Part shown: piece by piece, positions 20,361 to 63,391 of the stretch
Position numbering within the stretch: the stretch's first letter is position 1
Layout of the letters: the number at the start of each line of letters is the position of its first letter
Source: Hexactinellida sp. DTS-2022
Lineage: Eukaryota > Porifera > Hexactinellida
Direction of reading: 5' to 3'
NCBI GenBank assembly: GCA_028753945.1
Contig: JAPNXP010000008.1
Span: 1,612,001-1,676,000, forward strand
DNA length: 64,000 nucleotides
Program-made: the position numbers and the translations under genes
Notes under the pieces: generated by a model
Seen by the model: only the letters and a program-made list of their open reading frames with translations
Databases searched by the model: none
What the model was told of the DNA's origin: nothing

Positions 20361-20544
20361 ATAATCTGATCGAAGCATTGAGATAGTCTGCTTGAATATG
20401 ACATAGTCTGCAAGGTTAAAAGGTAGATTACAAGTATAAAAAAACGAGCAATTTGATCATCAAGAGCAACTTTTTAGTCCTAATAGTGAAGCTATTCATT
20501 TTGGTTGAATATTCGTATTGCAAGCACGTTTTGATGATGTAACA

Positions 20545-20980
20545 CAGTGGCGGCGCCAAGGGGGGGCCAAGAGGGGCACGTGCCCCCCACGGAAAAATGG
20601 TGCCCCCCCCGCCAGGGGGGGCACACTTTTCAGATATTTTTAGCGAGATATGAACAATATTGAACATGAACAACAAGTCTTCAAACATGAATGCCCAATC
20701 AATGTTAAGTGTTAAATACAACAGTGTGATTACATTTGTCGTGTTCTGATTGATGAATCTACATGAGATGGCCAGAGCTGGTGGTCCTGCTAATAAGCGT
20801 GCTCGCGTCCAGCGCCACCCGGCGGAGGGAGCAGCTAAGGTGAACTGGGCAAATATGTGGATTTTCGAGTGTAACGCAACTATGAATTCCTGCGTTTTTT
20901 TCTAAAATGGTGTGCCCCCCCTGGGTTAAGGTTTGCCCATCTGGTGCCCCCCCAGCGGCGGCGCCCTGGCGCCGCCACTG
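20545..20980 (-). mobile_element. hAT MITE, CAGTGGCGGCGCC family, copy 1
   Basis: The ends are CAGTGGCGGCGCCA and its inverse. A perfect 8-bp duplication ATGTAACA lies at 20537-20544 and 20981-20988. Long C and G runs lie near both ends. The inverted relative at 27826-28240 is very similar. The 97-codon ORF here is shared between the copies and is not a gene. Confidence 0.93.
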
Positions 20981-27825: not shown

Positions 27826-28240
27826 CAGTGGCGCCGCCGCTGGGGGGGCACCAGATGGGCAAACCTTAACCCAGGGGGGGCACACCATTTTAGAAAAAAA
27901 CGCAGGAATTCATAGTTGCGTTACACTCGAAAATCCACATATTTGCCCAGTTCACCTTAGCTGCTCCCTCCGCCGGGTGGCGCTGGACGCGAGCACGCTT
28001 ATTAGCAGGACCACCAGCTCTGGCCATCTCATGTAGATTCATCAATCAGAACACGACAAATGTAATCACACTGTTGTATTTAACACTTAACATTGATTGG
28101 GCATTCATGTTTGAAGACTTGTTGTTCATGTTCAATATTGTTCATATCTCGCTAAAAATATCTGAAAAGTGTGCCCCCCCTGGCGGGGGGGGCCACCATT
28201 TTTCCGTGGGGGGCACGTGCCCCCCCTGGCGCCGCCACTG
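27826..28240 (+). mobile_element. hAT MITE, CAGTGGCGGCGCC family, copy 2
   Basis: This is the inverted relative of 20545-20980. The flanks are TACTAAAT (27818-27825) and TACTAAAG (28241-28248), 7 of 8 identical. Its long C/G runs are shared with copy 1. Confidence 0.9.
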
Positions 28241-28856
28241 TACTAAAGTATTGTATTACGTATGTGGTCAATACACGATGCAAGGCAAGTTATACAATTA
28301 TGTTATATATTTTTATTATGTTTGACATAAATCAAATTAATCACTAAGGAACGCAGAAAATATTGAATTATATAGACTGTACAGGGAATCCATGCAACCC
28401 TTGTAGTCAACTGTATTACAACCTAATATAAGGACTTTACCATTACTATGGCTGGTAGTTTTTTCTGTAGTATTTGCAAGGATCAATGTTTTTGATTTTT
28501 GTAGGCTACTTTTCATACTTGAGAAAACACTAAATAGAAAGGTTCATCTTAATAAATCTAACACCAATATAATGTTTGCTCACTCTGGCAATTACTATGC
28601 CCCCCTCTAGATGAAATATCCTTGGACTTCCCTGTGAAGAGCGATCCTCTTGAAAGATTTCTCATAACAGAGAGATGGCACAAGGTCGATTTCTGGTTAG
28701 TTTAACCGAAGTTTTGCGTTGTGAGTCGATAATTTGCTTAAACACAATCCTAAAGAATATATTTAAATATTAAAAACTAACCTCATTTGAGTATTGACGA
28801 CGAAACAGATCTCTAAATTCATTTAATAAGCTAACTTTTAGGATGACATTTTATTA

Positions 28857-31630: not shown

Positions 31631-33293
31631 CGAGCCCTTCGGTCTCGGTCGCTTTGCGACGGATTGGTGCTACGCACCTAAAGTTAACGGCCGCTGTGCG
31701 GCCTTACTCCTCACTAAACCAATTGGGGGTCTGTTTACTTTGGTATATTTGAATAGAGGACTTTTTCAGAGCGTGTACTATTTTCATGCATCATGTTGCA
31801 ACGGAATTGCAAAATATTGCATGTATGATGGCTTAAGTATATCTATATACTTTGTGGAACATATACACAATATCCCTGTTTGCGACTCCCTCAGAGTAAC
31901 CTCCACCAGGGAGCAGCACTGCAATTTCAGGAGCAGAAGGAGCATTGTATCGGCGTGGGTCTGGGCAACCATCAGCTCTGATGATCAGCCTGATGTCCAC
32001 TCCTCCTTGTGCTCGCATTAGATCAACTGCGTGCTTGAAGTGAGAGACTTAGGGGTTAACCTCATGTAGCATTTGCTGCAAGGCCTTTAACTCAGGAAGT
32101 TTGGCCTCGCCTAGATGTCTCTGACGGTTTTCCACTTCAGCCTCTGCAGTACCGTCGTGGATGTAAATCTGGGCAAAGACTGGTGCCTCATCACTATTTG
32201 GAAGCAAACTTCCAATGTAATGGTGCACAACGCCCTGAATACGGAAGGTGTATACACCACGTCTAGCATTAGCAAGCTCTTTGTCGATATTTGCTCCGAG
32301 GGAACAAAACGCAAGGCTTGAGTTGTATGCTCGTATGTGGCTCCTGAAGTACTTGCCTCTGCTATCAGCAGCTGTGAGCAGATGGCGGAACAACTCAGGA
32401 AGCTTATCTAAGGAGGGAAGAACTACCTTGCCCTCTCCGCAACAGAGGGAAAACTTTGCACATGCTTTCGTACTGGTGGAAAGCTTTTCACTCTCCCAAA
32501 ACTTAGCATCACAAATTGAACAATTATAGGACATACTACCTAATGAATGTTCATCAACCAAACCATCACTAACCTCAGAAGAGATTTGTGATCTGGCTAA
32601 ATTGAGGTACCTCTTAGATTGGAGAGTCTTACTCGTCTCATACAACAGAGTCCGGGACTTCAAACGAACAATTCGCTCATTTTCAGACTCACTTTGTCTA
32701 AGGGCCTCCTGGTGTATGCGCTTGTACTCCAAGCGATCAGCTGATTCAGCCTCATACTCACTTTGTCTGAGGACCCCCTGGTGTATGCGCTTGTACTCCA
32801 AGCGATCAGCTGATTCGGCCTCAGACTCATTTTGTCTGAGGACCTCCTGGTGTTTGCGCTTGTACTCCAAGCGATCAGCTGATTCGGCCTCAGACTCATT
32901 TTGTCTGAGGACCTCCTGGTGTTTGCGCTTGTACTCCAAGCGATCAGCTGATTCGGCCTCAGACTCATTTTGTCTGAGGACCCCCTGGTGTATGCGCTTG
33001 TACTCCAAGCGATCAGCTGATTCGGCCTCAGACTCATTTTGTCTGAGGACCTCCTGGCGTTCGCGCTGGTACTCCAAGCGCATAGCTGTCTCTGCGTCAG
33101 ACTGCGCCAGTCTTCGAGAGGTTTGTCGCTCTCGTTGCTTCTCAAGACGGAGAGCTCTTTCGCCAGGAGTCTCATTCTCACGCATTGAGCGCTTTCGCTC
33201 AGCTTCCGTCTTGAACAGTTTAGTATTTGGAAAATTATTATCCGACATTCTTGAACAAAATTTATTCTTGAGCTCTACACAACTACTATACAC
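31631..33293 (-). pseudogene. Helitron protein pseudogene and 3-prime hairpin end
   Basis: The 414-codon ORF on the minus strand (33293 to 32049) has a basic N-terminus, about six 23-residue repeats (RLEYKRxHQEVLRQNESEAE type), and a Cys-containing YNCSICDAKF region. It then has the Helitron helicase-like N-terminal block (NRQRHLGEAKLPELKALQ). After a single TAA stop the same frame continues through RADGCPDPRRYNAPSAPEIA and LLPGGG to about 31833, so one nonsense codon interrupts it. The HUH Rep motifs and the helicase are missing. Downstream, GC-rich hairpins (31647-31715) and a CTCG terminus at 31631 resemble a Helitron 3-prime end in the right orientation. Confidence 0.82.
32680..33090 (-). 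repeat. 69-bp tandem repeats in the Helitron ORF
   Basis: About six units of 69 bases encode 23-residue charged, probably alpha-helical repeats. Because the unit is a multiple of three, other frames are open too. The plus-strand 233-codon and minus-strand 173-codon ORFs over this region are shadows. Confidence 0.85.
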
Positions 33294-33489
33294 TAATATA
33301 TAATTCTCTATGCATACTTAATTAGTTAATTCTCATTGGTTAACAATTCCTGCATACATAAAGCTGTTGTAAAATTAACCAATTAAATTAATAATTTAAG
33401 TAGAAAATTCTCATTGGTTAACGACACTATTTTTACATTGTAATTAATCAAATTATCTATAGTATAATATCTAGTTAGAAATTTATATA

Positions 33490-39336: not shown

Positions 39337-41520
39337 ATGGCAGAACATCCCTCGACAAGAAAATCAACGGAACATTTCCTATTTGGACAACCATGTGAAT
39401 TACCATTGAATCAACTTCCAACAGAGAATGATGTAGTAAAATACTACATGATGAAGAGACAACAAATTACAGACTGCAAATTAACTAATGAGAATAAATC
39501 TGATATTGTTGATCGTATCACTAAAATACTTATAGAGTTATGGAAAAGGGCATCATTACCAACGATTGATCATAAAAGCGTGAATCTCAAATTACTTCGT
39601 TTGATAGAAAAAGTCAAAGCTATTAACAAACTTAAGAGTAACGAAAGAGTTGATAATGCCAAATTAGGATCACTTTGCTCTGAATTTAACAAGCTCTTTG
39701 ATATTTGTAAGTGTACATGCTTTAGGCCTAATAGGTTTGGAGTTCACAATCCATCAATGTTAATACGGTCTATGTGTACTTGTGAAAACAAGATCTCCCA
39801 TAGAGAATGGGATTTTTATATAGATCAATTAGAAAAAAGAGACATTATTATCGGAAACGCCGTCGATATTCAAGCAACTATAACAACAAGGCAACGTGAA
39901 TTGGAAAGAGACCAGAAAAGAGATCAGTTTTCCAGAGAAGTAAAGAGAAAGAGAGATATTGAACAAACCACGTGTTACTGTTCACATGAAGAACTCATAC
40001 CTGAAGAGGAAATAACTGATAGCCCTGGTATTCTGGATGATTTTCTGTTTACACCAACAACTAATATTTGTACCTCACAAAATAGGCTTGAATATCCAAA
40101 TTTAATAGCAGATGCTTGTCGATTTGGCATTTCGAGGCGTGCTGTGTGTGCACTGTCAAATGCCTTGCTTTTAGACATGGAAATTCTTACACCAGAAACT
40201 ACTCTTGATCCGAATAAAATACAGAGAATGTTCCACAGGTATGGGAAGAAATTAGCACAATTAAATCGGAATGATATTAGCGGTGTCGAATGCATCATGT
40301 TCGATGGTAAGAAAGATGCTACACTTACTGTTGATCCAGTTACTTCTAAGAGAAGAATGATCGTTGAAGAGCATGTTGTAATAGTCGAGGAGCCCAATGG
40401 TAAATACAGAGATCATTTCACACCACAGAGTGGAAAAGCAATTGACTTATCAAGATTGTGGTTCGAGTTCGTCAGTGCAACACATACTTCAGAAACTTTG
40501 TGTGCTATTGGGGCTGACGGCACAGCTGTGAATACAGGCAAGGACTCTGGTGCAATTAGGCGGTTGGAATTATTGTTAGATAAACCTCTACAATGGATTA
40601 TATGCCTCCTACATCTTAATGAACTTCCTTTCAGACATCTATTTAAATTTATTGATGGAAATACGACTGGACCATCAAGTTACAGTGGAGTGATTGGAAA
40701 AGCAATTACAAAGGATAATTTAGTAGATTTACCTGTTTGCCACTTTACAACGATCCATGGAAAGAATCCCGAACTTCCTGATAGTGTAGTTAAGGACTTA
40801 AGTACAGATCAAAAATACTTACATTCCATGTCTCAAGCTATTTCAATTGGGTATCCGATTCCGGATGCAATGATTACTCAACAACCAGGATCATTGCACG
40901 AAGCAAGATGGCTGACAAAGGCAAATCGAATACTGAGACTCTATATATCCACGCAAGAACCTACCATTGAATTGGTTCGCTTGGTGACTATTATTCAGAA
41001 TGTGTACTCACCAAGTTATTTCAACATAAAATTGAATCCCAGCTGCATTCATATAGCAAAAATTTTCCACTTTCTCATGCAATTGTCTGAAGAATGCTTA
41101 ACTTCAACAGAAAAACAAATTGTTCAACCTGTCTTAATTCGCAATGCCTTTTCAGCTCATCCGGAAAATATTCTTCTTTCTGCATTGCATGATGTCCAAA
41201 AGGAAACTCGTATTTGGGCATTTCATCAAATATGTAATGCAAGGACAAGATCAACAAAAAGGGAAGACTATGTGCGCCAATTTAAGCCTCCAAAAAATCT
41301 AAACTTTACTGCTATAACTTATGTAGATTTAATTGATTTTGCAAAAATGAAGCCTTCTGAAATAACTGAGCCTCCAATGACAATGAAGCTCACGGAGGCG
41401 GAATTGCATCAAATTATCAATGGGCATTCAGTTATAGCAAAAGATATTCCAAATAATACACAGGCAACAGAGAGAGCAGTCAAATTGGTTTCTGAATCAG
41501 CGAACAAAGTAGCAGGATAG
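39337..41520 (+). CDS. Intact 727-residue transposase-like protein, uncharacterised family
   Basis: The single open frame spans the space between the long inverted repeats, so it is almost certainly the element's transposase. Visible features are: a Cys-rich segment at residues 124-149 (C-K-C-T-C, later C-T-C), possibly zinc-binding; a charged helical stretch around 185-210; and a C-Y-C motif at 213. A strand ECIMFDGKKDATL follows, with Asp near 323; then IGADGTAVNTG with Asp near 394; QWIICLLHLNELPFRHLF; a LSTDQKYLH block near 489; and EARWLTKANRILRLYIS near 522. I recognise this as resembling a multi-copy invertebrate protein family of unknown function. The two Asp motifs could belong to an RNase H-like DDE fold, but that is inference. 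There are no stops or frameshifts. Confidence 0.85.
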   Translation: MAEHPSTRKSTEHFLFGQPCELPLNQLPTENDVVKYYMMKRQQITDCKLTNENKSDIVDRITKILIELWKRASLPTIDHKSVNLKLLRLIEKVKAINKLKSNERVDNAKLGSLCSEFNKLFDICKCTCFRPNRFGVHNPSMLIRSMCTCENKISHREWDFYIDQLEKRDIIIGNAVDIQATITTRQRELERDQKRDQFSREVKRKRDIEQTTCYCSHEELIPEEEITDSPGILDDFLFTPTTNICTSQNRLEYPNLIADACRFGISRRAVCALSNALLLDMEILTPETTLDPNKIQRMFHRYGKKLAQLNRNDISGVECIMFDGKKDATLTVDPVTSKRRMIVEEHVVIVEEPNGKYRDHFTPQSGKAIDLSRLWFEFVSATHTSETLCAIGADGTAVNTGKDSGAIRRLELLLDKPLQWIICLLHLNELPFRHLFKFIDGNTTGPSSYSGVIGKAITKDNLVDLPVCHFTTIHGKNPELPDSVVKDLSTDQKYLHSMSQAISIGYPIPDAMITQQPGSLHEARWLTKANRILRLYISTQEPTIELVRLVTIIQNVYSPSYFNIKLNPSCIHIAKIFHFLMQLSEECLTSTEKQIVQPVLIRNAFSAHPENILLSALHDVQKETRIWAFHQICNARTRSTKREDYVRQFKPPKNLNFTAITYVDLIDFAKMKPSEITEPPMTMKLTEAELHQIINGHSVIAKDIPNNTQATERAVKLVSESANKVAG

Positions 41521-41659: not shown

Positions 41660-42066
41660 CTTTATCAACTTAGTCAATTATAATGCAAACACAATGCAAC
41701 AGTATTATGACATAGAGAGGGAGGAGGAGGGTAGACCATAAAATAGGCTATAGTAAAAACATATAAAATTTACTCACTTGAACCGGATAACATAGAGCTT
41801 AGCTCTTTGTATGAGTCGGAAGCAGATAACACACTTCCTATATGCAAATAATACAGTCGATGACTTAAATCGTAACGGAATTGTTGATATAGCTATTTGT
41901 ATCAAATCTCGTCGAGACAGTGTGTACACAAATCTTTGGCGCCCTTTCTCAGAACAAGTAGGCAAAATTATAAGCGTAAATTATTGTTATTTACATGTAA
42001 ACCAAACTTTTTATCGATGTAGCTAAACCATTTTGCCATGTGATTTAATATCGATACACCCTAGAC
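41660..42066. repeat. Right long terminal inverted repeat
   Basis: This is the inverted match of 38654-39060. It ends AATATCGATACACCCTA. Confidence 0.9.
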
Positions 42067-43697
42067 TGTGATACTGCAGATGGATGAAGTCCATGTAAAA
42101 TCGGAGTATACCTATAAAGGTGGAAAGATAATCGGTTCATCTATGCAACCAGACAATCCTGCGAAAACTGTTTTCGCGATAATGGTTTCAAGCTTATACA
42201 AGAAATGGTCAACTGTTGTTCGACTACTTCCTAGTGCTAAATCATCAGCTTCTGAACTGTATCCAATAATCAAGTCCGTTATTAATGATATTGAAAATTC
42301 CAATCTAATGGTTGAGGTCATTTGCACGGATAATTATCCAATGAATGTTTCTCTCTTCAAGTTATTTTCACCAACTGGTGTATTAGAGACTATTGTTCCT
42401 CATCCTTTCATTACGGAGCGGTCAATAGTGTTACTTTTCGATTTTGTACATAGTATATTAAAGAGCATTCGAAATAATTAGTTGAATCAGCATGATTACA
42501 ACCGTAATTTTCTTTATCCCAGCTTTGACGATTTCTCCAACAACAGCAAAGCACTATTCGAAGACATTCGTCAAATGTATCGAAGTGAACATACTCTGTA
42601 GCAAAACTCGCTCATCGTCTTACAGCAAAATCATGCTGGCCATCATGTTTAGAACGCCAAAATGTTAGTTTAGCTCATCGCGTTTTTAATGAATCAACCG
42701 CTGCTGCACTAACAGTTCAGAATTCTTCACGGCTCAAGTTTAAATCCGATTCAGCTGATTTCGTTACAATTATCTCAAACGTTTTGAAAATTTTCAATAT
42801 CAACACCCCGAATAAAGACATTAGATTGAATGATGAGCTATCTCTACCAATAGTTAACAACTATCCGATATTTAATTATCTTTCCAGAGAAAACCGGCAA
42901 ACTGAGTGCTCAGACATTTACTAGTTTTCGTCATTCTTGCCTGGCTTTACAAAAAATGTAACCACTTAACTCATAATCGTGGATTTTCATTCGTTCCTTC
43001 ATCTTTCCAAACAAACTGATCCCTTAGGCTTAGAACACCACTTTGGTCTTTACCGAATGATGGCAGGGGCACATTACCACATCACATATTGTCAAATATT
43101 GGAGACTAAGAGTCGAATAAAGCTGTCTAACACCATCAAAGTTATACCCAGAAAATGGTGGATGGATACGTTCTCAATTAAAGAGTATTTGATACATTTT
43201 CTTCATTTGACTATCAGGTAGACACTTCACTCAATTTGGACACTATATATATCGCAACTACAATATACTGAGGATATCGATACCGATGTAAATACTCTAT
43301 AATTTACCGTATTCATAGCTGGTTGTCTGTTCATAAATATCTCCTGAAGTCTCAAAACTGCAGTGGATGCCGTCTCGCTTTAACAGAAGAAAAATATTTG
43401 CATGTTGAAGAAACTCCTGATTCAAAGTACAAGCTTGTGCAAATTATTGACCGTGGATCACTTTTATGGCCTTCAAATGAAGTTATTGATGCCATCTTGA
43501 TTCTATGGTCAACCTTCAGAAAGATAGAGAATAGCCATGAATTATGGGAAGAATTTATCATCGAACCATCTCTACCAATACTTGTAGAACTAACAATCCT
43601 TTTAGTTGAAATTCATCAAAGCGAAACATGGACATATACGTGCCCCGGTTGTGAAATTGTTGGATGGAAGATATTGCGAAAACTAGTTATACTGTAG
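42067..43697 (+). pseudogene. P-like transposase, right part (catalytic core and C-terminus)
   Basis: Reading resumes with VILQMDEVHVKSEYTYKGG, the first catalytic Asp of P/THAP9 transposases. It passes through the VVRLLPSAKS strand and CTDNYPMNVSLFKLFS (second Asp, about 42330), then LFDFVHSILKSIRNN. Further blocks to 42925 are open only in pieces. The final ORF (43323-43697) has CSGCRLALTEEKY and a DRGSLLWPSNEVIDA strand, typical of the C-terminal region. Stops and frameshifts make it inactive. Confidence 0.85.
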
Positions 43698-53059: not shown

Positions 53060-53552
53060 GATAGCTTGTGGCTGGTTTATAAGATTGTAGTCACCACGAA
53101 CGATAGTTAGAGCATTGCCTACTCTATATAGGGCCTGACAGTAATCTAGAAAATATGGACCCCAAGGATGAATGAGATGGTAATATTTCTCAAACCACAG
53201 TATTTAATTTAAAAAATAACAATAATAATCAACCACATGTATGGAAACATTATCTAAATATTTACAACCATAGCATTCTAATATTCTAAGGAAATGGCAG
53301 ACATTTTTTTGGACCATGGATTGGTTAAACGAGTCATTCTCATATGCATTTGATTTGCAAATTTTAGGCCCCGAAAGATCCCCTCTATATCAGTGATGTA
53401 CTCCGTTACTAAATCTTCCGAAACTCCGTTACTCAGTTACCGTTACTTTATATCTCCCGTTACCGTTACTTTATTTCTTTAGTTACCATTACTCAGTTAC
53501 TTTTGTTTTCAATTAATCCGATCACCTTTAATCAGTTACCGTTACCTTAATG

Positions 53553-56500
53553 CACAGTGGTTTAAAACGGCATTTTGTAGGGAATAGGTATTTGGGTGCC
53601 AGATAGACGTATAAAATGTATTATTAGCCTATAGGTTATCGCCAATTTGGAATTGATTGGCCATATTATTATTTCTTTATGGTTTCGTTTTACCAAACTA
53701 TGACGTAATCAATATTAATATATATTTATTTTTTTACATTTTTTACATTTTTACATTTTTTATTTAGAATATACTACACATACTTCTTTAAGTTCTACGA
53801 TGGTTATTTCTTGGACTGTGTGGGGATATATATATATATATCATTAATATATTTTTACAGTATACAGAATACATTAATTAAATATATAAACTAATAAATT
53901 ATAACAGAACTTATTAACGAATCTACTAGAACATCAATATTAGAATTGGATTCAGTTTCTTTCTTACATTTTCTCAAATGACCACATCCTCCACAGCTCG
54001 GGCAAATTAATATTTTTCTGAAATTGAGCAAAACTGGGTCACTCTCAGAAGCCAGCCTGACGAAAATATCCATTACATTCGACTCAAAACTATTTTTCCT
54101 GGACAAATTCTCCCTGAATCGCCTGATCAATTTGTTGCAAGACTCTAGACCTTCTTCTGAGAAGCACTTGAGACCATAACCAGAATTACAATCGCGTATC
54201 AATTCTTCTGAATGGGCAAGCAGTTTGTGAAGAGTTGGAGTAATGCTGGCCCAAGGAAAAGAATCGAGAATGAGTAGGTAAGTAATTCTACACAGATTAC
54301 CGAGTTCTTCTGTATTTACTCTCCTGTCAGAATTAAAAATCCTTAGTATAGCTGCAAGTTGAGAGTGAATTATAGAGAGGGCTGGTCTATGCTGATCTTC
54401 TACCACGCTTAACACACATTCAATATATTTAGCTTCAACTGAAAAAGCTTTTCGGGCAACGTTACCAGTTGATGATGTACCTCCTTTAGGATCTGGTTGA
54501 TCTACTTTAAGCCCTGTTTGGTCCTGAATTAAACCACGAACAAATACCATAGATTGCTTTATATGGACAGAGGTTAAAGACCATTGATATTTTCCAGAGT
54601 TTAGGTGATAAATTAACAAATTAAACCACCTAAAAACACAAGTATAGGAGTGAAGTGGTGATGCTGAATTGATATCAATTGTTGAAATGGGTTCATGTGT
54701 TAAGTTGAAGCGTTGATTGGAGGGAAGTGAGAAAAATGATTCAATGTCTTCCATTTCTCCAAACATCTCAACTGCATCTGAAATTCTCCTATTTATGGGG
54801 AATCCTTGAACAACGAGTTCACGGTCTTTAAGATCTTTGTGAGTTGCGGTGCACATTTGACAACTCGCTCCTCCAGCCCCGGAAAGTAATGCCGACATCT
54901 TTCCATCAAACATAGATCGTATGATGTTGATATTGACATGATCACCATTAGCGAGATCTATTCCACTTTGCTTCATAGTTTCTGTGTCTTTGTTTATCAA
55001 TTCATTCATGAAAGTACGAATGGTTTCCTCACACTCCCTTGCTGCGCAGAGAAAAATGGGTCTTTGTGCGAAAGAGGAATTTGGACTCGAATTTTGCCAA
55101 ACTATGTGTCCAGAATGCGTAGTAATAGATATTGGCTTGAAACAAAACAATATGTAATTCTTAGTTGAGGTGTTAGTAGATACTTGGTTATAGGTAGTGT
55201 GGCTACCGGAGCCATCTAATCCATCAGCCATTTTGAAAGTAAGGGGAAACTCTTCTGCAGATGGCGGACTAATTACGCTTAGTATTCGCTCAACGGTTTG
55301 TTTAACAAATGAAATATACGAAGTACATACACCAATTGGTTTAGACGGATTAGGATAGATGTGAATAAGATCTCGTAAAATCAAAGAATCCCTGAGTTCA
55401 GCGAGCTTTTTGAAGGCAGGAAAGTTAACTCCACAAGGGAGCAACAACTGACGTAATTGAGTATACTTCCTTCTTCCTAGTTCTAATTGATCGACAAAGA
55501 AGAGAGACTTGTTGATTGGAACATCTTTTACTAATTCTTTGCCAAAGTCTCCACCAAAAGCTATACTTTTCGCGGTAGAAGCGATATCACGATCATTGCT
55601 TTCATTAGCTAAAAATTGCAATACTAATGAAGCAATTGTAATTGGGGAAGTTCCTTCACTCTCTGCTACAAGTCTAACACATTCTAAAACAGATTCTAAA
55701 CTTGTTCGCTGTTGCTTGATGGTTAGTGATAAAAGATGCTTACGAAATTGTTTAGAAACAGTAAAGGAAGTAACACTTTCTGTATGGCCAAGGATATTGA
55801 TATTCTTTCTTGGACATGGTTGCCAGGGTATTTCATGATTCCACCATTTGTCTTCGGATAAAGATTCAATCGGTTTGTGAGATTTCTTTAGACTAGTGCT
55901 TATTCTTCTAAATAGAGAAGAGACTGAGTCTTTCTTATCTTCATCCAATCCAAGTACGTCCAATAATTCATTTATTGAATCATTCACATTGAAATGAAGT
56001 TTCTTTAGCATGAATGCTAAATCAAGACGTGATTTTGGGTATGTGATTTCGGATTCAGCCATAATAATATTTTGATTATAAACGGATTTCTGTCGATTGT
56101 AAATTTGTACAGGTTATAATATGCAATTGTTACTACTTATATTTATAATAATATGATTAATTCTTTGATCGAAGTTATTGTTCCGGAGACTGAATTGATA
56201 GCCTGGAATGTGTAATATTAGAATAATTTTTTAGAAATTCATGCCACAAAAGAGCATATCATATATCTGTAATACCACAAGAGTTTATTGTGATGATACA
56301 TTATTTAGATATCATAACATAACTAAAATTAGATCATCTGTTTCCCTAGCAACAGATAGTGTAGAATGGAATGTACTATCCACCTATAGTTGCGCTAATT
56401 TTCGGGTCCTGAAATTTTTACCATATCTCCAGAATATACTAAAGATCGCCTAGCAAGAGTATTTCGTTGACCTTTTGTGACATTTTTTTTTGCGGACATT

Positions 56501-56895
56501 TATACTTCTGTCTAAAAGTTAAAAGTGAGAATCGGACAGTGGCCAATTAAAAATTGCAAAAACAACAAAACTTGATGACTTTCAAAAGATTAAGTTCAAC
56601 TATAACGAATAAACCATAGACGAAATCACTAGAATAAGTGTTACTTGAGTAGTGATGGCGATAAAACTAAAGATATGAAATAATGCATATGGAAGAGATT
56701 TTAGGATTTCGAAATTCCTAAATTTAGATGCATTGATTGTTTCGCTTAGTAATTCATTTATTCACGAAATAAGCATTGAATGAACTTGAAATTTTGGGTA
56801 TCTCCTCCTTATACATTCTAGTATCAATGTATGATATAAGATACAATATTTATAAACAGGATTTTTTTCTCTATTTCCTGCTATAAACCACTGTG
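53553..56895 (-). mobile_element. Complete Transib element (RAG1-like)
   Basis: The ends are CACAGTGGTTTAAAACGG and, inverted, CACAGTGGTTTATAGCAGG. The first seven bases equal the V(D)J recombination-signal heptamer, as known for Transib. A perfect 5-bp duplication TAATG (53548-53552, 56896-56900) has the Transib length. It contains a single intact transposase ORF on the minus strand, with about 830 bases of leader on the right and about 340 bases of trailer with a short TA microsatellite. All boundaries are visible, which is unusual. Confidence 0.95.
53891..56062 (-). CDS. Transib transposase, RAG1-core homologue, intact
   Basis: 723 residues without stops. All RAG1-core hallmarks are present: the first Asp in KMADGLDGSGSHTTYNQ (D280), the second in FDGKMSALLSGAGG (D386), zinc ligands C401-x2-C404, H612 and H617 (LHKLLAHS), and the catalytic Glu in FSEEGLESCNKLIRRFR (E637). 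In RAG1 these correspond to D600, D708, C727/C730, H937/H942 and E962. WFNLLIYHLNSG and SSTGNVARKAFS are typical Transib blocks. A Cys/His-rich tail (CPSCGGCGHLRKC, about 687-699) may bind a further zinc. The protein should cut and join the CACAGTG ends. The start ATG at 56062 gives the full length; no RAG2-like ORF is nearby. Confidence 0.95.
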   Translation of the reverse strand: MAESEITYPKSRLDLAFMLKKLHFNVNDSINELLDVLGLDEDKKDSVSSLFRRISTSLKKSHKPIESLSEDKWWNHEIPWQPCPRKNINILGHTESVTSFTVSKQFRKHLLSLTIKQQRTSLESVLECVRLVAESEGTSPITIASLVLQFLANESNDRDIASTAKSIAFGGDFGKELVKDVPINKSLFFVDQLELGRRKYTQLRQLLLPCGVNFPAFKKLAELRDSLILRDLIHIYPNPSKPIGVCTSYISFVKQTVERILSVISPPSAEEFPLTFKMADGLDGSGSHTTYNQVSTNTSTKNYILFCFKPISITTHSGHIVWQNSSPNSSFAQRPIFLCAARECEETIRTFMNELINKDTETMKQSGIDLANGDHVNINIIRSMFDGKMSALLSGAGGASCQMCTATHKDLKDRELVVQGFPINRRISDAVEMFGEMEDIESFFSLPSNQRFNLTHEPISTIDINSASPLHSYTCVFRWFNLLIYHLNSGKYQWSLTSVHIKQSMVFVRGLIQDQTGLKVDQPDPKGGTSSTGNVARKAFSVEAKYIECVLSVVEDQHRPALSIIHSQLAAILRIFNSDRRVNTEELGNLCRITYLLILDSFPWASITPTLHKLLAHSEELIRDCNSGYGLKCFSEEGLESCNKLIRRFRENLSRKNSFESNVMDIFVRLASESDPVLLNFRKILICPSCGGCGHLRKCKKETESNSNIDVLVDSLISSVIIY

Positions 56896-57404
56896 TAATG
56901 TAACTGTAACTAACTAAAGTGTAACGGCAATGGAATAAGTTTAAAGTAGTAACGGTGTTGTAATGGTAGGAGTAACTGAAAAAAGATTACGGTAACTAGT
57001 TATAAAAGTAAGGGATGTCCGTTTCAGTTACATTTCTCTGTACCGTTACTCGGCGACGCCCATTATGGTTACTCCGTTACTAAGTTACGGAGCACATCAC
57101 TGCTCTATATTGTATATTGTTTAGCATCATTATATCAAACCATACTGATGACATCAGGCATCACAATCGAATGACATTTTGAACCTGAATTCAGTTGAAC
57201 GGGAATTTTCTTTAACAACCACATCTAATTTTATGTTCAATTTTATTTACTATACACCAATATTTTGTATTTGGTCACGATGCGATTAGTTTAATGTAAA
57301 ACGAAATAGAAATTTCATCTAAATACAGTTTTACGAATTATTACATTCTTGTTTGTCATAAATATATTGATTTTCTTGTGGTTATGATAGCTGTTAAGTG
57401 AAAC

Positions 57405-59599: not shown

Positions 59600-62500
59600 C
59601 TAGCGAACTTCACTTGCTAGGTCGCTTCGCGGAAGAACACAACCACGCACACCAACCGCTTTGCGGTTGATGCGTGGTTTACATAATAATAATATTATTA
59701 TAATAATATAACAGTGTTTAGAACGCTTTACACTTGTGTCCCAAAGGGTTTACAGTTCAAAAAGATACAGATAAAATTATAGTACGTAAGTTAACAGTCC
59801 AAAAATATACATTACAGAAATAGAAATGTAGTGCATCTAGTTAGCAATCCAACTATGCATTAGATAGATAGTACATCAAGATTAAGAGTAATAAATTTTA
59901 AAAAGATGTGTTTTAACACGCGTTTTAAATGTTTCTATGGTCTGCGACTTTCTTACGTGATCAGAAAGTGAATTCCACAAACGCGGATCAGCATTTGAGA
60001 ACGTACGATCGTCATACTTCTTAAACTTAGATCTAGGTTGATATAGTAAATTTGTGTGTGTTGTAGACCTAAGATAATGACTACTTTGATGAAGTGTTAT
60101 CAGTTTACTTAAGTATGTCGGACAACAGCCACAAATGATTTTAAATGTGATAAGCAATATTTTGTAATCTATTCTAGCTCTGACTGGTAACCAATGTGAA
60201 TTTTGAGCATTGGAGTTATGTGGTCTCGCTTCCTTGCTCCAGAAATTAAACGAGCTGCCGCATTTTGTATACTCTGGACTCTGGAGTCTATTTAGTTCTT
60301 GTGATTGTAGCCCATAAAGTAGGGAATTGCAGTAATCTATTCGACTGGAGATGAATGCATGAACTAATCTCTCAACAGAAGATTTATCCAGATAATTGTG
60401 TAGAGCTCCAATCCGGCTTAAAGCTAGTGGTGCCACACTGCATATTCTACTTATATGAGAATTCATCCGTAGATGTTATCCCAAATAACACCAATATTTA
60501 GAGCTGAGTCTACTGGATGTATGACAGAAGATCCGAACGTAATTGGAAAGGTAGGATGAAGTATTCGAGATTGGGAAGTAAATATATCAAGTTAGTCTTA
60601 TTTGGATTACAGCTAAGTATATTTTCAATAAACCAATTCCTCAGAGTAGATAAACAGGTTTCTAGACGGATTATGGTATTTCTAATAGCGATAGCTTAAG
60701 AGATATATACAGTTGGGTATCATCCGCAAATAATTGTACTGATAGTTGATGATCATGAATGATGTCTCGTATCGGCGAAATAAATAGGTTAAAGAGTAGG
60801 GGACCTAAAACTGAACCTTGGGGCACACCCCGTAATACAGTGCAAGAAATAGAATGAAACCCATTTATGCTAACAGTCCGTTGTCTTTGGGACAAGTACG
60901 ATTTTAACCAAATAAGGGCGTTTCATGTGATGCCGAACCTTACTTGTAGGCGCTCAATTAATAATTCGTGGTCAATCATATCAAAAGCGCAGGACAAATC
61001 CAATAGAATTAACAGAGCGTTCCGTCCTTAATCGAGGGCACATCCTACGTCATTAAACAGCTTAATAAGTACTGTCTCGGTCGTGGTGCTTTCTATACCC
61101 TGATTGCATTAATGGATAAAGGTTGTTCCTAGAAAGGTAGCTTTCCAATTGTATAACGGTAGCTTTTTCAATAATTTTAGAGAGAAGGGGTAGGTTAGCT
61201 ATAGGCTGATAGTTTGATAGCACATTAGGATCCAGAGAGATTTTTTTATACAAGGAAAGATAATAGCATTTTTTAGATTTTGAGGGAATGTAGCTTGTTG
61301 ATACGAGCTATTTACAATGATTTGTATGTGTTCCACCAGACAGTCAAGACAGCTTTTAACAATTGATGTGGGTGCTGGGTCAAGAGTACATGATTTTGTC
61401 TTAGATCCTCGAAATAGCACTTCAGTCTCAATTGCACCCAAAGGTTTGAAATAGCTTAGTTGAGTTGAACATATCCTAGCTGGAGTGTGGGATACACTGA
61501 TCAAATCTGTGTCAAGATCTTTCCGGAGCTTTTCAATTTTCTTCTCGAAAAATTCAACAAATTGATTTGCAAGAACTTGTTTAGAGATTGAACTAGAGTT
61601 AGAATCAGGGAGAATGTGGCATTTATTAGGTACTGATAGTTTTTTGCTAAGTGAAATAGTTTTCTGTCGTCGCAATTACCAAATTTATCACGGTAGAATT
61701 TTGTTTTCATTGAGTGCAGTAGACGATTATACATAAGACATTTCACTTTAAATTTGTCGAGATCATATAAGGACTTTGTCTTAATGTACCTTCTCTCAAG
61801 TTTACGTACCTGTCGCTTTTCACCTCTTTGATCGTCAGTGTACCACTTACAGAAAGGGCGACTGGTTAAAGTTTTAGTACATGTAGGAGCATGAGAGTCG
61901 AGTACTTGGGATAAATTGGAATTGTATCTATTGACTAGTTCGTGAACAGTATCAAGTTCTGAGCCGAAATTAGCAAGATTTAGATCATCCTTGAACCGTT
62001 CAATATCTATTCCTTTAAGTTTTCTAAATTTGACTAAAACTTTTGATCGTTTAGGAGCTGGAAAGTATACATCGCATATCACGTAGGAGTGGTCCGATGG
62101 TGTATCAGAGAGAAAACGCTAGTTGTAATGATTGTAGCACTATGTGAGCGTTTCGTAATAACTAGGTCTAATAGATGACCAGAGCATTGGGTTGGAACTT
62201 TTACGTGTTGTTGCAGGTAAAAAGTATCGAGAAGAACCATAAATTGACTAGCTTGTGATCCTGATAACAGTTCAAAATGTATATTGAAATCACCCGCTAG
62301 AATAATCTGTGTTTGTGAGGTAATTATACATTCAATTAAGTTTGAGAAATCCGAAAGAAATTGACTGAAAGGTGTTTTGTTTTTCGAAATAGATAGAGGA
62401 CGGTAAACTGAAATTATCCGACAGAATAAATTTCCAGATGACAAAGTCAGGTCTAGATACTCAAAAGAAACATAAGACTGACCTCCATTTAGTTTAGCAT

Positions 62501-63391
62501 TAAAATCACGCCTGTATAATAATGCTAGTCCCCCCTCTCATGGCTCGTGGAAGATTTTTCAGTTTGTAGCCTGGAAGTAAGTGACGCAACATGCATAGTG
62601 AGTGTTCTTTGCCTTGAGTAATCCACGTCTCCGTTATTGTAAAAATATCAATAATATTCAATATTGTTAGAAATTACTATATCTGAAATAGAATCAACTT
62701 TGTTGTTAACAGAGCGGGCATTCCATACAGCGAATTTTATCCTATCTTTCCGATTGATGAAAGAGATGTTTCTAATGATTCTGTGACCCCAGAGGCAATC
62801 CTTCGGTCGGAAGGAATGACAGTACTCCTTGTTCTCATCCAGTAGCTTGTCACATGGGTTGGAATTTATTTTGTAGATTTCCTGGATTTTACTGAAAGTC
62901 CAGACCGCCTACCTCTAGTTTTTCTTCTATATCGACGATCAGGTAATTGCAGAAAGTTCCCCAGATATTGATAAATTGAGTGTAAATTTGGAAAAAATAG
63001 TAGATCAGAAAATATATCATGAATAATCAGAAACAAGTAGTAAGAAGAAAAATTAGACCACTCCACAAACAAAGCAGCCATGAGGCGCTTAGAGATAAGA
63101 GAGAACAGATACAAACAATAAACAGTCAAGTATTAAGGAGTAGTGACTGTGCTCTACATCTCTGTAGTTTAGTTTTATGAAGTTTTGAATATTTTTTCAG
63201 GGTTCTCGAAATGTGACAATGACGTCATAACTTGTCGAGGTGTGAGAAATTTTAAGTGGAAACCTCAAATTGTTGTAGGGTGCCAAAGGTTACCCCTATA
63301 TGAAAAAAATCGCCCACTTTATCCAATCAACTCTGAACATACAAACAAATATATACCCTTGTGTTTCAATAGTATAGATAGATCAGTAGAC
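59600..63391 (-). mobile_element. Helitron copy 2, split by a LINE
   Basis: On the minus strand the 3-prime end has hairpins ACCGCAAAGCGGT and a decayed TCCGCGAAGCGACC, and finishes CTAG at 59600, followed by host T. The 5-prime end begins with (G)TC at 63391-63389 after host A. Comparison with the empty site in P-like copy 1 (near 11535) shows insertion between A and T without duplication, the Helitron rule. A LINE occupies its centre. It is homologous to 24575-25280. Confidence 0.82.
59692..63180 (-). pseudogene. L2/CR1-like non-LTR retrotransposon (LINE), decayed
   Basis: On the minus strand: a basic stretch (RRYRRKTRGRRSGL, about 62900); an AP-endonuclease start IKFAVWNARSVNNKVDS (about 62700-62745); ILAGDFNIHFELL (about 62290); a linker with coiled segments (61500-62080); RT motifs NYQPIANLPLLSKI.., RGVPQGSVLGPLLFNLF and LFADDTQLYIS (60700-60860); and a C-terminal region RLVHAFISSRIDYCNSLLYG and NSHWLPVRARIDYKIL, typical of L2/CR1-type ORF2. 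Frameshifts and stops divide it. The 3-prime end has a TAATAATATTATTATAA microsatellite at about 59693-59720. Target duplication was not resolved. Confidence 0.88.

Follow-up and report, generated by a model that had tools for sequence, protein, structure and literature searches.

HzTransib (PDB 6pqn and others) is described in passages of PMC8289069 as having symmetric ends with little or no nonamer. It shares with the element analyzed here, which lies in a stretch of 64,000 nucleotides of a glass-sponge genome (hereafter, the window), the catalytic and zinc residues, the heptamer ends, the 5-bp duplication and the possession of a single gene, but it lacks most of the stretch between positions 408 and 457 of our family profile. 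Asymmetric ends have been reported in “all” Transibs of Subgroup I (PMC9435367), which also resemble the sponge element in their CTT1-type tail and, to judge from length and alignment, may do so in an extra stretch in the zinc region (the alpha11-alpha12 region); the difference is that, in the sponge, the rule of unlike ends could be counted over hundreds of ends and is accompanied by covariation. Sponges are not mentioned in the main text of PMC9435367.

The same paper describes AanRAGL, from Aureococcus, with elements of 13 and 10 bp and spacings of 4 and 13 bp. When recounted from the heptamer, these spacings become 10 and 19 bp, almost those of the sponge Transibs; however, AanRAGL has RAG2L and its box reads CCTCAA[C/T]A[C/T]G (PMC9435367). 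For ProtoRAG, from lancelets, passages of PMC8289069 indicate that asymmetric pairs of ends outperform symmetric ones. ProtoRAG is similar to the sponge element in its bipartite ends and in its zinc tail (CTT*, which contacts the end), but, according to the same passages, its spacers are 27 and 31 bp and RAG2L is needed. Vertebrate RAG1 and the 12/23 recombination signals (RSSs) share with the sponge system the heptamer CACAGTG, a second element at two spacings that are about one helical turn apart and the pairing of unlike ends, and both the core and the nonamer-binding domain (NBD) of RAG1 can be aligned with the sponge transposase. By contrast, their spacers are 12 and 23, RAG1 acts with RAG2, and their nonamer, ACAAAAACC, is not the box described below; this nonamer was found at neither spacer 12 nor spacer 23 in the window element.

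The element and its insertion site

Positions 53553-56895 of the window hold a complete Transib element of 3,343 bp with CACAGTG ends, whose features and surroundings are as follows:

53391..57102, no strand: hAT-like non-autonomous host repeat with CAGTGATG ends, with the Transib inside
53548..53552, no strand: target-site duplication TAATG, left copy (from the sequence and the empty site L063)
53553..53559, plus strand: heptamer CACAGTG of the transposase-3′ end, which is the long-spacer end (from the sequence)
53580..53588, plus strand: second box GGGAATAGG of the transposase-3′ end, at spacer 20 from the heptamer (from the comparison of ends)
53891..56062, minus strand: open reading frame of the Transib transposase, 723 aa, from ATG to stop
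56859..56867, minus strand: A-rich word AAAAAATCC of the transposase-5′ end, at spacer 21 (the nonamer of the earlier note)
56870..56878, minus strand: second box GGAAATAGA of the transposase-5′ end, at spacer 10 from the heptamer (from the comparison of ends)
56889..56895, minus strand: heptamer CACAGTG (CACTGTG on the plus strand) of the transposase-5′ end, which is the short-spacer end
56896..56900, no strand: target-site duplication TAATG, right copy (from the sequence)

The 723-codon frame, the CACAGTG ends and the perfect TAATG duplication, all of them reported in the earlier note, are present as described. Since a related host repeat (L063) aligns without gaps across the junction and has a single TAATG, the duplication truly marks an insertion. 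The element belongs to the Transib superfamily of cut-and-paste DNA transposons.

The host repeat measures 364 bp without the Transib and is flanked by the 8-bp duplication CTCTATAT (53383-53390 and 57103-57110); from this duplication and the type of its ends, we take it to be hAT-like. The repeat (which, with the Transib and the duplications, spans 53383-57110) is rich in GTTAC units, and its relatives are found throughout the genome (at least 52 matching stretches, with 40/154 candidates scored and around 74-84% identity in the longer matches). One of them, L062, has an insertion of 1.15 kb close to this site, which is not a Transib.

Two-part ends

The layout of the ends was derived from both ends of the sister copies and from other families. 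The heptamer is followed by around six family-specific bases that are common to both ends and then by a box similar to GGAAATAGG. In the window element, this box is GGAAATAGA at spacer 10 on the transposase-5′ side and GGGAATAGG at spacer 20 on the 3′ side. The asymmetry of the ends put forward in the earlier note is real, but the second signal is not one-sided, as it had proposed.

Of 17 relatives that were scanned, ten combine matching ends with exact 5-bp flanks, and the same was observed in three non-autonomous copies. Matching 5-bp flanks are absent in a near-identical copy (L058) and in one element in L067, although the ends match in both. The comparison covers eleven families, that is, the ten relatives (of which L051 and L054 count as one family), the window element and one non-autonomous family. 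Over these families, the best shared 8-mer is found at spacers 11 and 20, with a mean of 6.0 matches out of 8, while the maximum in 300 shuffles was 4.18. The box is clear in nine of the eleven families, the exceptions being L002 and L060, and the short spacer lies on the transposase-5′ side in all eight families in which a transposase and a box are present together.

The sequence of the box is family-specific (e.g., GTCGATTAG, TCGAATAGG and GGAAGTAGG) and covaries between the two ends of a family. In the nine families with a box, the agreement between ends is 8.33/9 within the own family and 5.83/9 with other families, and only 4 of 20,000 permuted pairings equaled the own-family value, although the spacer was chosen per family (10/20, 11/20 or 10/19), which favors own pairs somewhat.

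Spacing and pairing across the genome

The genome searched comprises 112.4 Mb in 18 contigs. In it, CACAGTGG followed by GGAAATAGG within 30 bases is found at 400 ends, and the reversed control at none; among the 100 of these ends that were listed, the spacer is 10-12 in 40, 19-21 in 58 and of another length in 2. The variant CGAATAGG gave 30 matches (reversed control, 0), with spacers of 11 in 10 cases, 19-20 in 18, 9 in one and 30 in one. Three A-box variants gave 58, 28 and 301 matches (reversed controls, 0, 0 and 4); once repeated matches of the same end were merged, the 58 became 53 and the 100 listed of the 301 became 67 ends.

Among the listed ends, there are 53 inward-facing pairs within 7 kb (29, 19 and 9 from three lists, with four in common), and all of them join a short with a long end, when random pairing would be expected to do so in about 45% of the cases. 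In the list of 29 pairs, the twelve ends that a stricter criterion had left unassigned all have the short form, of 26-27 nt, and three long ends that were first matched by their prefix alone were confirmed as long. Outward-facing pairs among the listed GGAAATAGG ends are mixed, with one each of long with long, short with short, and long with short. Only a limited set of families contributes to the 53 pairs, and many are copies of the same non-autonomous elements; as members of the same family do not represent independent events, the strength of the observation lies in the families and not in the number of pairs.

An apparent pair of long ends (C17:1208111 and 1214824) was discarded, as its sequence corresponds to two short-with-long elements. 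The first is flanked by TTTTG at either end, and the second lacks matching flanks.

Proposed recognition of the ends

In all likelihood, the window element is a Transib whose RAG1-core-like transposase grips the heptamer and the box and joins a short with a long end. From the ends, the duplication and the homology, a two-contact grip appears the most likely arrangement. In this model, the single-gene RAG1-core-like DDE transposase would most likely contact each end twice, at a heptamer-proximal block and at the GGAAATAGG-like box. Synapsis would join the short-spacer end (box at 10-12 bp, transposase-5′ side) with the long-spacer end (19-21 bp, 3′ side), and would then be followed by cleavage at the heptamer and insertion with a 5-bp staggered cut of the target. 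As the spacers differ by 9-10 bp, the box would face the same side of the helix at both ends, shifted inward by one turn at the long one. We infer that the box is read by the N-terminal region that aligns with the RAG1 NBD, that the zinc-knuckle tail may help near the heptamer and that synapsis would require unlike ends. The pairing would, then, work like the 12/23 rule, but with no second gene in the elements. Several observations count against this model: the lack of a clear box in L002 and L060, the small number of families behind the 53 pairs, whose asymmetry might be preserved by shared descent alone, the flank mismatches of L058 and L067, and residues 121 and 496 of the window transposase (see below).

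The most serious alternative, which we consider unlikely but worth weighing, is that the asymmetry was inherited from an unlike-ended ancestor and that unlike ends are needless today. The arrangement and its polarity are common to all families, and the copies of each family cannot be counted as separate events. However, the spacers have remained at 10-12 and 19-21, and the box still covaries between the ends, in families that have diverged to 43-60% protein identity, and unconstrained inheritance would not keep two distant boxes matched.

A further explanation, that of the earlier note, is that an RSS-like nonamer (AAAAAATCC, spacer 21) is present at a single end of the element. The 7/9 match exists, and in several other families, too, the box of the 5′ end is followed by A-rich tracts. 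The match is, however, hardly a distinctive signal, as it was equaled in 897 of 20,000 shuffled versions of the end (4.5%). In the background, 119 of 1,703 stretches of the window do equally well, or 12 of 1,703 when only spacers 20-22 are allowed, while the best match at the transposase-3′ end is 5/9. Of the five sister copies compared, three keep 7/9 and two have only 6/9. In addition, a conserved box lies nearer the heptamer at both ends, and, altogether, we regard this explanation as improbable and prefer that of a box gripped at both ends.

The transposase

The transposase is, as the earlier note had recognized, a RAG1-like Transib protein, distantly related to the enzyme responsible for antibody-gene assembly. 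It matches the Pfam family RAG1 (E 1.7e-9), as do 17 of the 21 family members, and its best solved relative in a PDB search is HzTransib (6pqn, E 4.9e-22), followed by the lancelet BbRAG1L (E 5.4e-11) and vertebrate RAG1. It is closer to Transib transposases than to RAG1 or RAG1L both with a family profile of 21 rows (152.2 bits for HzTransib, 64.9 for BbRAG1L and up to 59.1 for RAG1) and with the single sequence (81.1, 44.6 and 33.6, respectively). The alignment of the family profile with RAG1 extends through the NBD.

All core residues are kept, but part of their naming in the earlier note must be corrected. RAG1 D600, D708 and E962 correspond to D283, D386 and E640, so that, of the three catalytic residues proposed (D280, D386 and E637), only D386 stands. 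E637 aligns with RAG1 E959 and the column of D280 has W in HzTransib; both are conserved neighbors of catalytic residues and not catalytic themselves. The zinc residues were correctly assigned: C401 and C404 (RAG1 C727 and C730) are kept in all 21 aligned family members, and H612 and H617 (RAG1 H937 and H942) in the 19 that reach that region.

The C-terminal tail (CPSCGGCGHLRKC, residues 687-699), whose comparison with RAG1-like proteins had been rightly recommended, forms a CTT-like zinc knuckle, CX2CX3GHX3C. This is a variant, one residue shorter, of the CTT* motif of RAG1L, given as CX2CX3GHX4C in passages of PMC7204232. Of the 19 relatives whose alignment extends to the tail, most have a similar knuckle, and it is damaged in P0024. 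Four of the 19, the glass-sponge Transibs P0029, P0031, P0033 and P0034, lack it.

The protein family is described without RAG2, and the elements examined here have no second gene. In the 11 complete elements scanned for open frames of at least 80 aa, introns not being considered, all further frames lie across the transposase gene, except in L055, where the frame represents the N-terminal piece of the transposase. No RAG2-like gene was found in the window element or in these 11 elements, and the genome was searched twice for the RAG2 family with no match, a result that carries no information, as the control genomes gave none either. The absence of a second gene from the elements, together with profile scores far higher for HzTransib than for BbRAG1L and RAG1, makes it very improbable that the element is a transposon of the RAGL type (RAG1L-RAG2L), be it complete or after the loss of RAG2L, despite two characteristics that would fit such an origin: the CTT-like knuckle in the tail and the 208 residues between C404 and H612, which align with BbRAG1L and are close to the 207 of RAG1 and well above the 165 of HzTransib.

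Copies, intactness and age

A protein search of the genome gave 71 matching stretches, including the window copy, some of which are pieces of one element. The next full-length relatives of the window transposase are 56-60% identical to it. Six sister copies share DNA with the window element and diverge from it by 2-4% (K2P 0.022-0.043 over all aligned bases and, in the five of six sisters compared there, 0.024-0.063 in the transposase-5′ end stretch), and all six are broken by truncations, stops, frameshifts or insertions. The search for copies with both ends, suggested in the earlier note, gave two (C6:2433140-2437790 and C16:2373962-2378154), both broken. To judge from its sequence, the window copy is not young.

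The differences between the window copy and its sisters fall at codon positions as 73, 73 and 90, and such a near-even spread is as expected mostly of dead copies. The window protein also departs at three sites from residues that are invariant in 20 relatives, with S121 (for R), F217 (for Y) and L496 (for P). Residue 121 corresponds to R407 in the NBD of RAG1. While F217 is common to some sisters, the readable sisters have R121 (5/5) and P496 (3/3). Thus, the reading frame is intact, as the earlier note said, but the two private departures (121 and 496) would count against understanding “intact” as functional. With both ends, the duplication and the empty site intact, an almost even codon-position spread and two otherwise invariant residues changed, it is scarcely credible that this is a domesticated host gene and not a mobile element, even though its frame is intact and those of its six sisters are broken.

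Intact Transibs are no rarity in this genome, as 9 of the 11 complete elements examined have a frame of at least 710 aa. Other families contain near-identical pairs (99.3, 99.8 and 99.0% identity) and look recently mobile.

Three protein searches gave at least 59, at least 83 and 63 matches. Names are carried by 9 of the 59, 11 of the 83 and 11 of the 63 (in the first two, among the matches listed), all of them Oopsacas minuta, and no named relative from outside the sponges was among the matches listed. These transposon relatives point to a glass sponge as the probable host.

Relation to the 12/23 rule

Asymmetric Transib ends have already been published (Subgroup I) and, thus, the kind is known. 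No report of strict short-with-long pairing and no paper on sponge Transibs were found in the open-access literature searched; the words “Transib” and “RAG1” are absent from passages of two glass-sponge genome papers. The strictness of the pairing and the covariation of the box are cleaner than a specialist would expect.

As to the origin of the 12/23 rule, passages of PMC8355894 tie the recognition of asymmetry to RAG2, and an asymmetric ancestor has been inferred from few elements (PMC9435367 and passages of PMC8289069). We tentatively suggest, with somewhat more doubt than confidence, that glass-sponge Transibs, whose elements carry no RAG2, follow a strict unlike-ends rule through a box that coevolves with the transposase; that, with nearly the same spacing (10/19) in the algal RAGL, the core of the 12/23 rule would predate both RAG2 and the split between RAG1 and Transib; and that the RSS nonamer would be a descendant of the box with a changed sequence. 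In any case, hundreds of Transib ends in one genome constitute a large natural data set on pairing, and the sponge ends are ready substrates for asking whether transposases that lack RAG2 impose a rule on the pairing of ends.

The tree of PMC9435367 is rooted on bacterial Transibs, one of them labelled Candidatus thioglobus, which we suspected to be contamination from a host sponge. Searches with two strict peptide patterns each gave 21 pattern matches in GTDB species genomes and 22 in viral contigs, none of them confirmed; given such strict patterns, these scans argue neither for nor against a bacterial origin.

Other features in and near the window

An element of 4.1 kb that precedes the window by around 40 kb (G000:C17:1571404-1575528) shares its short and its long end with the TTTA-type non-autonomous family, of which it is possibly a longer or autonomous member. 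Within the window, a 727-codon open frame without a Pfam match (39337-41520, plus strand) and, after it, a piece with the TNP-like RNase H N-terminal domain (42065-42481, plus strand; PF21787, E 6.5e-12) may belong to another DNA transposon. Several overlapping frames at 59882-62537 (minus strand), one of them with an Exo_endo_phos_2 domain (endonuclease/reverse-transcriptase-type), are the remains of a non-LTR retroelement. Two open frames on opposite strands (20428-20901, minus, and 27894-28325, plus) start with the same long amino-acid sequence and are an inverted duplicate, probably of a repeat. Finally, a frame of 422 aa (32049-33317, minus strand) contains around seven copies of RQNESEAESADRLEYKRxHQ and has no Pfam match.
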